59,975 nt of DNA, from NCBI GenBank assembly GCA_012837605.1, contig DUQV01000071.1:1-59975 (forward strand), in the 5' to 3' direction. Positions 119-43,891 of this stretch are shown piece by piece. Position numbers and translations under genes: made by a program. Every line of letters starts with the position of its first letter. Position 1 is the first letter of the stretch. The notes below the pieces were generated by a model. That model was not told the DNA's origin and searched no databases. It was given only the letters and a program-made list of their open reading frames with translations. This DNA comes from Clostridiales bacterium. GTDB lineage: Bacteria > Bacillota > Clostridia > Lachnospirales > Lachnospiraceae.

Positions 119-147
119 TTTAAAAACTACCCAAAATGTGTTACAAT
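119..147 (+). promoter_or_regulatory. Promoter of the structured RNA / gdpP leader
   Basis: A -35 TTTAAA (119-124) and a -10 TACAAT (142-147) are separated by 17 bases, and the -10 carries a TG extension (139-140). The expected start, about seven bases downstream, coincides with the 5' edge of the P1 stem of the RNA at 154. The downstream bases GTCCACGATAGGC resemble those behind the promoter at 41915. Confidence 0.6.
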
Positions 148-153
148 GTCCAC

Positions 154-301
154 GATAGGCGGGTTAGTCCAAGAGAAACAGTATGTTATATGTGACTCGT
201 TTTTTGAGTCACAATATAACATAATGTTTCTCTTGGATAAGTGCAACGTGAGCGATGGAGCGAAGCTCCAGAGCTACTAACCTGTCATCAAGACAAATTA
301 G
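154..301 (+). ncRNA. Structured three-way-junction RNA, copy 1 (gdpP leader)
   Basis: The fold has P1 (154-167 with 277-289), a long hairpin P2 whose outer stem is 169-180 with 225-236, and a short hairpin P3 (256-270). The single-stranded junction 237-255 reads ATAAGTGCAACG then TGAGCGA, and GAGCT follows P3. The same layout and junction bases occur at 41928-42074 with different but still paired stems. The P1 3' strand CTAACCTGTC can alternatively pair with GACAAATTAG (292-301). It lies about 40 bases before the gdpP start, so it may be a cis-acting leader; a free small RNA is also possible. I do not recognise it as a named family. Confidence 0.7.
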
Positions 302-338: not shown

Positions 339-2399
339 ATGGGTAGAAAATTAAGACTGAACAGTGCATTAAAAGCCTATCTTTTGTGGCCGGTCTACCT
401 AACAGTTCTTTTGCTATTAATGAATCTTGTTATATATGTAATAAACAAAAAAGCTGGTCATGTTATGTCCGGTTTTGTTCTGGCTTATTTTGTATTAGCT
501 ATGATTATTTTCTATTTTAGAAGGCATCAAATTGCTACAGATCTTGTCAGATATGCAATGGATTTTGCTCAGGTTCAGAAGCGGCTGCTTAAGGAAATGG
601 CCATTCCATATGCACTTCTCGATGTGGATGCAAGACTGCAGTGGGGCAATAACGAGTTCATGGATTTGTTTTCGGGCAAGAAAGCGATAGGTCAGTCAAT
701 AACCAATATAATCCCGGATATTACAAAAGACAGTCTTCCAAAAGCGGAGGCGGATGAGGTTGTCCATTTCATGTTAAACGACCGAAACTATAAGGCTGTA
801 CTTCGTAAGATTATATCACCTAACTTTGATGAGGATGCCAATTGGAACTTTTACGAATCGGAAAAGGCATGGGAGACAAAAAATGCATTAATTGCGATGT
901 TTTTATTTGATGAGACAGATATAATTACTCTTCAAAAGGAAAATAAGGAGCAGAAGCTTATTGTAGGATTATTATATATAGATAATTATGATGAAGCTTT
1001 AGACAGTATAGATGAGGTAAGACGTTCATTACTTACTGCCTTGGTTGACAGAAAGATAAATAAATACATGCAGGGTATCGATGCAGTTATTAAGAAGCTG
1101 GAAAAGGATAAGTTCATATTCGTATTCCAATATAAATACCTCTCTGTTCTGCAAAGCACCAAATTCTCTATTCTTGAAGAGGTAAGAAATGTAAACATTG
1201 GAAATGAGATGGCTGTAACCATAAGCATCGGACTTGGGGTAAATGCTGACAGCTATATAACAGGTTATGAATACGCCCGTGCAGCTATAGATCTTGCTTT
1301 GGGAAGAGGCGGTGACCAAGCTGTAATAAAAGATAGGGATAAGATTTCGTATTACGGAGGCAAGAGCATTCAGGTTGAGAAGAGCACAAGAGTAAAAGCA
1401 AGGGTTAAAGCGCATGCATTTCGTGAATTTGTAGAAGGAAAAGACAAGATTGTAGTAATGGGACATTCTCTGGGAGATGTGGATTCCTTCGGAGCAGCGA
1501 TAGGCGTATATAGAATAGGAAAGACATTTAACAAGAAGGTTCATATAGTAGTAAATGATATAACAACTTCACTTAGACCGATGATAAGCCGGTTTGTGGG
1601 AAACCCCGAATATGAGGAGGATCTGTTCCTTAATAATGAGCAGGCGAAAGAAGTTGTTGATGTGAATACATTGCTTGTTATTGTAGATGTAAACCGTCCA
1701 AGCTTATTGGAATGTGAGGAGCTGCTTGATTATGCAAGGTCGGTTATTATATTTGACCATCATAGACAAACAAATGAGGCAATTGAACATGCTGTATTGT
1801 CATATATTGAGCCTTATGCTTCTTCAACCTGTGAGATGATAGCAGAAATCCTGCAGTACATTGGAGGGAATTTGAAGCTTAGACCTATGGAAGCAGATGC
1901 TCTATATGCAGGTATTATGGTCGATACTAACAACTTCCTTACTAAGACCGGAGTCAGAACCTTTGAGGCAGCGGCATATTTAAGAAGAAACGGTGCGGAT
2001 GTGATAAGGCTTCGTAAAATCTTCAGAAGCGACTTTATGGAGTTTAAGATCAAAGCTGATGCCATCAGCAGTACTGAGATTTATTTGGATTATTATGCAA
2101 TAGCAGTATGTGCGGACACCGATGTGGACAGTCCGACTGTACTGGGAGCCCAAGTAGCAAATGAACTTCTTAATATTGCAGATATTAAGGCATCTTTTGT
2201 TTTTTCTGAATTTAACAACAAAATATATATAAGTGCAAGATCCATAGATGAGGTCAATGTGCAGCTTATTATGGAGAGATTAGGCGGAGGAGGACATCTA
2301 AGCGTAGCGGGTACCCAGTTAGAGGGTTGTACAATAGAGGAAGCAATAGCGATGTTAAAGTATACACTTGATACAATGGTTAAAGAAGGCGATATCTGA
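339..2399 (+). CDS. gdpP: Cyclic-di-AMP phosphodiesterase GdpP
   Basis: Membrane enzyme that hydrolyses c-di-AMP. Two hydrophobic segments lie at about residues 12-58, followed by a PAS-like region, a degenerate GGDEF domain (GRGGDQ near 322 in place of a working GGDEF) and a DHH/DHHA1 phosphodiesterase. The DHH motifs are visible: GHSLGDVDSFG at 375, DHH at 473-475 and GGGGHLSVAG near 650. The length of 686 residues fits the family. The ATG at 339 is preferred over the upstream in-frame start at 255 because AAAGGAG lies eight bases before it and the 255 start falls inside the structured leader RNA. It heads the conserved gdpP-rplI-dnaB cluster. Confidence 0.95.
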   Translation: MGRKLRLNSALKAYLLWPVYLTVLLLLMNLVIYVINKKAGHVMSGFVLAYFVLAMIIFYFRRHQIATDLVRYAMDFAQVQKRLLKEMAIPYALLDVDARLQWGNNEFMDLFSGKKAIGQSITNIIPDITKDSLPKAEADEVVHFMLNDRNYKAVLRKIISPNFDEDANWNFYESEKAWETKNALIAMFLFDETDIITLQKENKEQKLIVGLLYIDNYDEALDSIDEVRRSLLTALVDRKINKYMQGIDAVIKKLEKDKFIFVFQYKYLSVLQSTKFSILEEVRNVNIGNEMAVTISIGLGVNADSYITGYEYARAAIDLALGRGGDQAVIKDRDKISYYGGKSIQVEKSTRVKARVKAHAFREFVEGKDKIVVMGHSLGDVDSFGAAIGVYRIGKTFNKKVHIVVNDITTSLRPMISRFVGNPEYEEDLFLNNEQAKEVVDVNTLLVIVDVNRPSLLECEELLDYARSVIIFDHHRQTNEAIEHAVLSYIEPYASSTCEMIAEILQYIGGNLKLRPMEADALYAGIMVDTNNFLTKTGVRTFEAAAYLRRNGADVIRLRKIFRSDFMEFKIKADAISSTEIYLDYYAIAVCADTDVDSPTVLGAQVANELLNIADIKASFVFSEFNNKIYISARSIDEVNVQLIMERLGGGGHLSVAGTQLEGCTIEEAIAMLKYTLDTMVKEGDI

Positions 2400-34350: not shown

Positions 34351-34424
34351 GGCGAAGTAGCTCAGTTGGCGAGAGCATGCGGTTCATACCCGCAGTGTCG
34401 GCGGTTCAAATCCGTCCTTCGCTA
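34351..34424 (+). tRNA. tRNA-Met (CAT anticodon)
   Basis: A full cloverleaf: acceptor GGCGAAG with CTTCGCT, D arm GCTC/GAGC, anticodon stem TGCGG/CCGCA with loop TTCATAC, T arm GGCGG TTCAAAT CCGTC and discriminator A. The paired first position (G-U, not the C-A mismatch of initiators) marks an elongator-type methionine tRNA; an Ile tRNA with a modified CAT is less likely here. CCA is not encoded. A T run at 34425-34431 follows. The place between divIC and spoIIE is conserved in Firmicutes. Confidence 0.95.
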
Positions 34425-41875: not shown

Positions 41876-41914
41876 AAAATCGAAGGTTTTCAAGCTAAAT
41901 CCGCAAATTTATGA

Positions 41915-41920
41915 TATAAT
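41915..41920 (+). promoter_or_regulatory. Extended -10 of structured RNA copy 2
   Basis: TGA then TATAAT (41915-41920), followed by GTCCGCG and the P1 stem at 41928. No good -35 is visible, which the TG extension may offset. Confidence 0.55.
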
Positions 41921-41927
41921 GTCCGCG

Positions 41928-42074
41928 AATAAGCAGATTAGTCCATGTTAAACAACGCATTTATATGACATGATTTTATGTCATATAAATGGGATGTTTA
42001 ACATGGATAAGTGCAACGCGAGCGAAAAATGCACGGCATTTTGAGCTCCTAATCTGCTTATTAAGCAGGATTAG
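41928..42074 (+). ncRNA. Structured three-way-junction RNA, copy 2 (radical SAM leader)
   Basis: P1 is 14 perfect pairs, AATAAGCAGATTAG (41928-41941) with CTAATCTGCTTATT (42049-42062). P2 is a long hairpin, CCATGTTAAAC (41943-41953) with GTTTAACATGG (41996-42006) outermost. The junction reads ATAAGTGCAACGCGAGCG, P3 is AAAATGC/GCATTTT (42026-42042), then GAGCT. The P1 3' strand can also pair with AAGCAGGATTAG (42063-42074). That downstream segment together with TCCAT repeats the 5' edge AAGCAGATTAGTCCAT, so one strand has two rival partners. Junction bases match copy 1 while stems differ. Confidence 0.7.
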
Positions 42075-42112
42075 TCCATTTGGTTATAATATAATACAAA
42101 GGAACGACAGCC

Positions 42113-43891
42113 ATGAAAATCTTATTAGTAGCCATAGACGCCAAATATATTCATACAAACCTTGCTGTTCACAGCCTAAGGTCTTATTCAGACGGATACA
42201 GGGATAGTATTTTTATTTCTCAGTATTCGATAAATCATACTAAAGAGGAAATTTTACGCGGAATATATCTTCATAAGGCAGATATTGTGGCATTTTCATG
42301 CTATATATGGAATATAGCTATGATATTACGGATTATTGAAAGTCTGAAAAAGGTACAACCTCAGGTTAAGATATGGTTCGGAGGTCCTGAAGTATCCTAT
42401 AATGTCAGAGAATACCTGTTAAAATATAAGGAACTTGATGGTATAGTAATTGGAGAGGGTGAGAAGACATTTTATGAGCTTGTTGAGTATTATCAAAGAG
42501 ATGGTAAGGAGCTTGATAATATTAATGGTATTGCATTTAAAGACAGTGCAAGAAAGGATCAGGAAGCCCATAAGAAAGATGGGGAGGTTATACAGACACC
42601 GCCACGAAGGTTAATGCCGCTAAATGATATCCCTTTTGCTTACCCCGATATAGATACCCATAGGAATAAGATTATATATTATGAAAGCAGTCGCGGATGT
42701 CCGTATTCATGCAGTTATTGTCTATCCTCTGCTCAAAGAGGTGTAAGGTATCGCAGTTTGGATCTTGTGAAATCAGAGCTTAAGATTTTTTTAGAACATA
42801 AGATACCTCAGATTAAATTTGTTGACAGAACTTTTAACTGCAATAAAGAGCGTGCCATGGAAATTTGGAAGTTTATTAAGGAGCATGATAATGGCATAAC
42901 TAATTTTCATTTTGAGATTACGGCAGATTTATTAAGTAATGAGGAGTTAGAAATCTTAGACAGCTTAAGACCGGGACTCATTCAATTTGAAATCGGAGTA
43001 CAGACAACCAATCCCGATACAATGAAGGTTATCAGGAGAAAGGTGGATTTTAACAGACTGTCTGCTAATGTGAAGCACATAAGAAATTCACATAACATCC
43101 ATCAGCATCTGGACCTGATTGCAGGACTTCCGCTTGAGGATTATTCTTCATTTGAAAAATCCTTTAAGGATGTTTATCAGCTAAAGCCTGACCAGCTTCA
43201 GCTTGGATTTTTAAAGGTTCTTAAGGGTTCTGCAATTGAGAGCGAATGTAAGGACTATGGGATTGTTTATAACAGTGAACCTCCTTATGAGGTTTTATAT
43301 ACGAAGCACCTTACCTATGATGAGATAATAGAGCTTAAGGGCATTAGCGATATGGTAGAGATTTATTATAACAGCGGCCAGTTTGTGTATTCCATGGAGT
43401 ATCTTGAGCACTTTTTTGATACTCCTATGAAGCTGTATGCTTCACTATACCATTATTACAATGAGAACGGGCTTTACGAATTATCACATTCAAGAATTAA
43501 GCGATATGAAATCCTGTTGGAATTTTATAAGGATATTATGAATGATAAGACCAAAGATGATGAATATAATAATGAAATGCTTATAAATGATGCTAAAGAA
43601 AGACTTGCGGTATTTAAAGAAATACTTGTTTTTGATATTTGCTTGAGAGAGGCATTGAAAAACAGACCGGATTATTCCGGAACTCCTATTCCTTATCATA
43701 AATTCAAACAAATAAGTGAAAACCATAAGATTAAGGGATCAAGGATACATCTTGAGAAATTTGATTTTGACGTTATGAAATCGGCAAGGCAGGGTAAAGC
43801 CATAAAGGGTGAATGTATTATTTTATTTGATTATGATAACAGGGATCCAATAACAAAGTCAGCAAATATCAAAGTTATTAAAGAAGAATAG
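42113..43891 (+). CDS. B12-binding-domain radical SAM protein
   Basis: The 592-residue protein has an N-terminal cobalamin-binding fold (about 1-145; KILLVAIDAKYIHTNLAVHS, IWFGGPEVSYN and IGEGEKTFYELV), a radical SAM barrel with the cluster motif C196-x3-C200-x2-C203 (in GCPYSCSYC) and a C-terminal DUF4080-like domain. The usual cobalamin histidine DxHxxG is not plain. Substrate unknown; relatives include methyltransferases acting on unactivated carbons. The AAAGGAACGACAGCC site is between the ATG and the structured RNA. Confidence 0.88.
   Translation: MKILLVAIDAKYIHTNLAVHSLRSYSDGYRDSIFISQYSINHTKEEILRGIYLHKADIVAFSCYIWNIAMILRIIESLKKVQPQVKIWFGGPEVSYNVREYLLKYKELDGIVIGEGEKTFYELVEYYQRDGKELDNINGIAFKDSARKDQEAHKKDGEVIQTPPRRLMPLNDIPFAYPDIDTHRNKIIYYESSRGCPYSCSYCLSSAQRGVRYRSLDLVKSELKIFLEHKIPQIKFVDRTFNCNKERAMEIWKFIKEHDNGITNFHFEITADLLSNEELEILDSLRPGLIQFEIGVQTTNPDTMKVIRRKVDFNRLSANVKHIRNSHNIHQHLDLIAGLPLEDYSSFEKSFKDVYQLKPDQLQLGFLKVLKGSAIESECKDYGIVYNSEPPYEVLYTKHLTYDEIIELKGISDMVEIYYNSGQFVYSMEYLEHFFDTPMKLYASLYHYYNENGLYELSHSRIKRYEILLEFYKDIMNDKTKDDEYNNEMLINDAKERLAVFKEILVFDICLREALKNRPDYSGTPIPYHKFKQISENHKIKGSRIHLEKFDFDVMKSARQGKAIKGECIILFDYDNRDPITKSANIKVIKEE

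Follow-up and report, generated by a model that had tools for sequence, protein, structure and literature searches.

A structured, dispersed element 5′ of gdpP and of unrelated genes in Lachnospiraceae, and its possible effect on mRNA decay

Described systems and the window copies

Clostridiales-1 RNA (RF01699) was entered in a 2010 table as probably RNA, probably not cis-regulatory and probably not a riboswitch (Weinberg et al. 2010, PMC2864571). Among small dispersed repeats, CREE/NEMIS of Neisseria are described as often standing before genes, where they can separate a native promoter from its gene and form part of the mRNA (PMC2649163, PMC2229807), and their inverted-repeat stems in transcripts are reported to be bound or cut by RNase III (PMC2649163). 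In some cases they supply promoter parts, and they often insert at TA (PMC2649163, PMC2229807). The ERIC/RU-1 repeats of enterobacteria are also co-transcribed, with an orientation-dependent effect on mRNA stability, and the review's account of them presents end-to-end paired stem-loops, mentioning neither a three-way junction with a conserved core nor a constant spacing from a -10 box (PMC2229807). Among the publications listed in a literature search, with PMC11109978 and PMC8632094 covered by term search, none describing the family analysed here was found.

The window (the whole stretch of 59,975 nucleotides analysed) holds two copies of an element that shares with CREE its small size, its dispersal and its place between a native promoter and a gene (Table 1), and that differs from CREE in its native gdpP promoter, its multi-branch fold, its conserved core and its covarying stems. 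A sequence-only reading of this DNA had set the start of the first copy at an extended -10 promoter, which was borne out with coordinates accurate to within a few bases. Copy 1 lies at the predicted +1 of this promoter, which matches 9 of 12 consensus positions in addition to the TG, although chance alone often yields similar sites (on average 1.7 in shuffles). The stretch from TTTAAA to the -10 box is also seen 5′ of gdpP in G019, G005, G001 and G007, where no intact element precedes the gene, and the promoter is recognisable in close relatives whether the element is present or absent. A promoter belonging to the element, as in CREE, was therefore rejected at gdpP, and the promoter there is native.

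Table 1. Coordinates of the features of the two window copies and their surroundings
Feature	Position	Strand	Basis or detail
Native gdpP promoter	119..147	+	TTTAAA 119-124, 17-nt spacer, TG 139-140, -10 TACAAT 142-147
Structured RNA element, copy 1	155..288	+	Covariance model R1, 130 bits; also found by R2
P1 5′ strand GGCGGGTTAG, copy 1	158..167	+	Fold and alignment
P2, copy 1	169..236	+	Long hairpin; sequence free, pairing kept; 22/23 pairs with changes on both sides
Unpaired conserved core ATAAGTGCAACG, copy 1	237..248	+	Invariant or nearly invariant alignment columns
P3, copy 1	250..275	+	GAGC/GCT; internal loop of tandem G-A; variable stem of 6 bp closed by a GAA loop
P1 3′ strand CTAACCTGTC, copy 1	277..286	+	Two G-U pairs: G161-U283, G159-U285
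gdpP	339..2396	+	GGDEF_GdpP and DHH domains; first gene 3′ of copy 1
-10 box TATAAT of copy 2	41915..41920	+	TG at 41912-41913
Copy 2 of the element	41929..42060	+	R1, 121 bits; also found by R2
P1 of copy 2	41928-41941 / 42049-42062	+	
Core GATAAGTGCAACGCGAGCGA of copy 2	42006..42025	+	Core pattern searches
Fragment TTAAGCAGGATTAGTCC	42061..42077	+	Start of a broken second unit 3′ of copy 2; direct reading
B12-binding radical SAM protein (DUF4080)	42113..43888	+	First gene 3′ of copy 2

The same reading had matched the structure to no known RNA class, and no Rfam match reached threshold on either window copy; the only Rfam 15 match in the whole window was a tRNA gene (34351-34424). With relaxed thresholds the two copies drew hairpin models of the microRNA type, along with a small number of unrelated RNAs, and nothing else. 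The best of the hairpin models, mir-6095, scored 36.2 bits of the 100 needed, and these sub-threshold matches, which are due to the long P2 stem, were rejected as an assignment to a known class.

RF01699 gave no match to either window copy at E ≤ 10, and none of the 34 genomes of the genus exceeded its gathering cut-off of 48 bits. Sub-threshold RF01699 matches lay at nine places in 7 of the 34 genomes, at least five of the nine coinciding exactly with matches of our covariance model R1. When 20 loci found by R2, a broader model built from diverged copies, were scored, one diverged R2-type copy (L334) reached 51.7 bits, above the cut-off; L330, L340, L346, L325 and L105 remained below it with 28.6-40.3 bits. 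RF01699 had matches in 213 of 394 Lachnospiraceae genomes, 175 over the cut-off, and in the reciprocal test R2 applied to 25 canonical RF01699 loci gave 2 matches below E 0.001, 4 weak ones and none at E ≤ 1 in the rest.

The apparent likeness to Clostridiales-1 lies in dispersal in the same family, a closing P1, a long P2 hairpin, which in part of the present family has a CUUG tip, and a purine-rich internal-loop arm. Many R2-type copies combine P1, a CUUG-tipped long P2 and the internal-loop arm, whereas in the window copies P2 ends in a longer tip that is not CUUG. Unlike the present family, the 25 canonical Clostridiales-1 copies usually carry one more long arm and another form of P3 and lack the AAGTGCAACG core; most end in CATCA after a second hairpin, and across 24 of them -10-like hexamers stood at no fixed distance. 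The canonical copies (L401-L425) look dispersed as well, many with TGATG and CATCA ends enclosing the second hairpin. Judged by these sequence comparisons, the present family appears to be a class separate from Clostridiales-1 on the same general plan, possibly with a distant kinship.

Fold, covariation and sense strand

Both window copies folded about 12 standard deviations below their shuffles, with -72.2 kcal/mol against -31.1 ± 3.4 for the region of copy 1 (150-296) and -68.6 kcal/mol against -27.2 ± 3.3 for that of copy 2 (41926-42072). The three-way junction proposed from the letters alone was recovered as the consensus of 32 aligned copies, in which 29 of 40 pairs had two-sided changes with pairing kept. 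This alignment comprises 32 of the 42 core matches listed, leaving out L028 (Actinomycetota, no fold) and nine cut or unanchored matches. Paired cells made up 94.5% of it, whereas shuffles gave 75.1% and slid structures 33.3-42.9%; cells changed on both sides numbered 259, compared with 78.1 in shuffles, and none of the five measures was reached by any of 500 shuffles. The covariation first noticed between two copies is thereby extended far past them, and the G-U pairs read in P1 are real (Table 1). The assignment of GAGCGA and GAGCT to the junction stands in part, since GAGC was found to pair with GCT beside the tandem G-A internal loop. A 14-mer, GGATAAGTGCAACG, occurred twice in the window, both times mismatch-free in a search permitting up to two mismatches, and two or more matches arose in 2 of 100 shuffles.

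Most of the sequence change in the alignment falls in P2, while the core ATAAGTGCAACG, the P3 foot and P1 are fixed in sequence. P1 is almost fixed among the 32 aligned copies; in other lineages its sequence differs and the pairing is still kept. The third base of GAGC in P3 covaries with its partner in 67 sequences (G-C 37, A-T 28, G-T 1, A-C 1). The core may resemble a stretch of 16S rRNA. Partial tandem repeats of the 3′ half (core, P3 and P1 3′ strand, or parts of these) follow the element at L010, L017, L285, L333, L336 and L342 and look as if units had been copied or trimmed at the P2 foot, and a small hairpin repeat of the GGTTCAGC...GCTGAACC type is nested inside the core and P3 at L219, L221, L223 and L429 and in the second tandem unit of L426.

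To the question of which strand is the folded molecule, P2 gives the best evidence. Its first 11 pairs were read from fixed anchors, without fitting, in the 109 distinct copies (of 147) in which the anchors were found, and comprised 1024 Watson-Crick, 60 G-U, 7 A-C and 108 other combinations. G-U outnumbered A-C by 42:5 in the copies preceded by a promoter and by 18:2 in the remaining ones; per sequence, 45 of the 109 leaned to G-U, 2 to A-C and 62 were ties. Since equal importance of the two strands predicts equal counts, the excess of G-U argues that selection acts on the sense RNA as the folded molecule. Part of the excess could come from transcription-associated mutation or a mutation bias of the non-template strand.

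Distribution, placement and turnover

A search for the 20-nt core found 4 places in the source genome (0 with a reversed control pattern) and 34 stretches in a species-level genome collection, all but one of them assigned to Clostridiales, Lachnospiraceae, Mobilisporobacter or Herbinix; the sole exception was L028, from Actinomycetota. A collection of viral contigs gave no exact core match, and a viral carrier was rejected on this ground. Within the genus, R1 matches numbered at least 270, tandem units counted, and were spread over 26 of its 34 genomes; the counts of 0 to 49 per genome are lower bounds (at most 100 candidates per genome were scored). In a family sample R1 had matches in 13 of 250 genomes, the own genome included. 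For R2 the figures were 120 of 397 genomes in Lachnospiraceae and 11 of 291 across the class, five of the latter in other families; its E-values are rough, and the position of its loci serves as an independent check. The genus loci analysed come nearly all from about 150 of the 270 R1 matches, with four from the family sample, and 147 primary matches of 182 were used, omitting tandem second units, antisense P2 matches and most weak ones.

The element is placed with great regularity. Among the 143 genus copies with enough flank, the last T of a -10-like hexamer lay 7 or 8 nt before ATAAGC in 79, every other distance accounting for 0 to 8 copies, by a simple hexamer rule on which all promoter counts rest; a TG extension was present in 63 of the 86 copies with the -10 box at 6-9 nt. 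Copies lacking a promoter often overlap the end of the preceding gene: in 12 of 147 copies, element bases 2-4 were the stop codon (TAA 11, TAG 1) of an upstream frame of at least 90 codons. The next ORF was on the strand of the element in 113 of 129 genus copies (p about 4e-19 if copies were independent, a nominal value because related species have sites in common), as called by a crude greedy procedure (at least 70 aa) that at window copy 1 skipped gdpP and named a later gene. The gene preceding promoter-class copies was on the same strand in 47 cases versus 41 on the opposite one.

Outside the genus, 61 of 70 R2 loci had a recognisable left-edge feature, namely a -10 box 5-16 nt upstream (30), the stop codon of a same-strand frame of at least 90 codons (25) or a T-run directly upstream (12); the 70 are the best-scoring R2 matches, mostly one or two per genome, and no random draw. 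The R2 model contains none of these three features, and at the same loci only 12.9% of 2100 random positions fitted the rules (4.7, 4.4 and 4.4% for -10 box, stop codon and T-run). In several of the 12 T-run loci the run comes after a hairpin and is terminator-like. At L332, L380 and L395, from three genera, the element starts at the stop codon of genes with the near-identical C-terminal peptide PGRI(V/I)NIV, a site that is apparently very old or repeatedly chosen. At L325, L351 and L381, in three genomes, it lies directly 3′ of what we take to be the GGM-rich C-terminus of GroEL.

Copies within a genome were up to 0.97 identical with flanks of 0.30-0.64 (21 best pairs listed). That the element is structured and dispersed is very probable. 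The downstream genes are mixed, including obgE, secA, asnS, a DnaD/DnaB-type gene, recF, tsaC, rqcH, topoisomerase, uvrD, transketolase and others, and no common pathway was found among those searched. Some sites are common to several species: between murC and the DnaD/DnaB-type gene in five genomes; at obgE in three, with one further genome sharing the upstream gene where its contig ends; at hpf-secA in three; and at asnS, recF, tsaC and a MoxR-type ATPase in two each, the gene names being those of one representative per site. Species that share a gene as a site can have different promoter flanks there and also a different P2 type, so some shared sites may be separate arrivals.

A gdpP gene occurs in 33 of the 34 congeners, and among 30 loci R1 found the element there in G000, G017 and G015. 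Of the 30 readable gdpP leaders, five hold an intact copy (the same three, G004, and G047 with an N gap), about nine, judged by eye, hold stubs or broken copies (G044, G019, G001, G005, G018, G046, G048, G023 and G011), and the remaining 16 have no obvious trace. At the radical SAM gene R1 found the element in G000 alone among 30 loci, and among the 12 loci listed, inspected by eye, G019 and G009 probably retain remnants and G005 may do so. Before rqcH it was found in G000 and G044 among 30 loci, with a weak match elsewhere in L444, and remnants were seen by eye in G009, G019, G005, G001, G022 and G049. To judge from this erosion, most hosts manage without the element at gdpP and rqcH.

Possible roles of the element

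We favour, at a probability of about 0.55, a dispersed element that acts in cis on the mRNA and, through its structured 5′ end, influences decay by RNase J or RNase III. That it acts in cis at the RNA level is likely; 5′-end protection or RNase processing as its main effect is a more tentative proposal. With transcription and transcript ends predicted from sequence, the element would make up the 5′-terminal 130-160 nt of the gdpP mRNA, and in stop-codon copies it would be transcribed between the genes of an operon. Promoter copies have in common a long helix and a 5′ end that is predicted to be enclosed by P1. As P1 begins at most about 4 nt from that end, the end would be tucked into a helix, which should hinder 5′-end-dependent decay through RppH and RNase J, and the long P2 helix would be a plausible RNase III substrate. 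The target would be the stability or processing of the mRNA of any gene 3′ of the element, with no gdpP-specific sensing, and the element would spread and be lost over time.

This proposal draws on analogy with 5′-end stem-loops, which protect some mRNAs, Bacillus RNase J1 being reported to prefer 5′ monophosphate ends (PMC7509114), and with the RNase III sites described in CREE (PMC2649163). If it is correct, a single small RNA shape recurs in numerous unrelated transcripts, often of housekeeping genes, across a large family of bacteria from guts and digesters, and Rfam-based annotation misses it on account of its freely varying stems. These hosts are, by analogy with Bacillus, of the RNase J/RNase Y type, and the family would offer a natural test set for a structured 5′ end setting mRNA lifetime in such bacteria. 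The unexplained 2010 class Clostridiales-1 would gain a look-alike with a very regular position. A preference for +1, for stop codons and for the ends of terminators would offer a clue to an unusual mode of insertion.

5′ protection leaves the near-invariance of the 12-nt core unexplained. A fixed core suggests a bound protein, and core and P3 together are probably a protein-binding site. In a bolder and rather doubtful extension, the family would consist of mobile mRNA leaders throughout Lachnospiraceae, landing on the sense strand at transcription starts, stop codons and terminator ends of unrelated genes, so that host messages would begin with, or be punctuated by, one protein-binding multi-way junction.

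Rather improbable is the rival reading of a miniature mobile DNA element, with a folded single strand needed for transposition, AT-rich targets and no RNA function. It would account for the many dispersed copies with unrelated flanks, for the eroded stubs at old sites and for three kinds of landing site that are all harmless, two of them AT-rich (-10 boxes and terminator T-runs). T-run copies fit it better than an RNA role, since an upstream transcript would stop before them. The ratios of 60:7 for G-U over A-C and of 113:16 for sense orientation stand against it. Apparently duplicated flanks, with a repeat score of at least 9 in 8 of 142 copies versus 2.7 expected, speak for it, but tandem copies account for several of these (L181, L242). 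Target-site duplication is most plausible at L268 (G010), where a 17-bp direct repeat including the -10 box flanks the element; other strong cases were tandem copies carrying the promoter, so target-site duplication is put forward only as a possibility. IS200/RAYT was rejected as the mover because Y1 transposase (Y1_Tnp), the enzyme that the search covered, does not track copy number, none being found in G017 (32 copies) or G043 (13 copies), whose searched assemblies are 85% and 96% complete.

Improbable is a site or sponge for a global RNA-binding protein, in which the core ATAAGTGCAACG and P3 bind one factor that the copies share or titrate. The fixed sequence of the core and P3 foot, along with P1, agrees with it, as does the P3 tandem G-A loop, which is kept while its flanks covary, but a copy number from 0 to 49 among congeners is odd for a dedicated sponge.

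In the window copy, the one examined for an expression platform, no terminator-like site was found in 1-500, on which an attenuator was rejected, and the Shine-Dalgarno sequence of gdpP (AAGGAG, 325-330) lies outside the fold; a classic riboswitch is thus unlikely. The leader acting on c-di-AMP breakdown that the sequence-only reading had raised, i.e. a gdpP-specific leader or riboswitch, is very improbable even with gdpP as a frequent site, given the copies before unrelated genes and the 25 of 30 gdpP leaders without an intact copy. The intact copies at gdpP belong to separate lineages (G000, G017 and G015/G004/G047) with differing stem sequences, an occupancy above the expectation for a random promoter, and the element may bring some benefit there.
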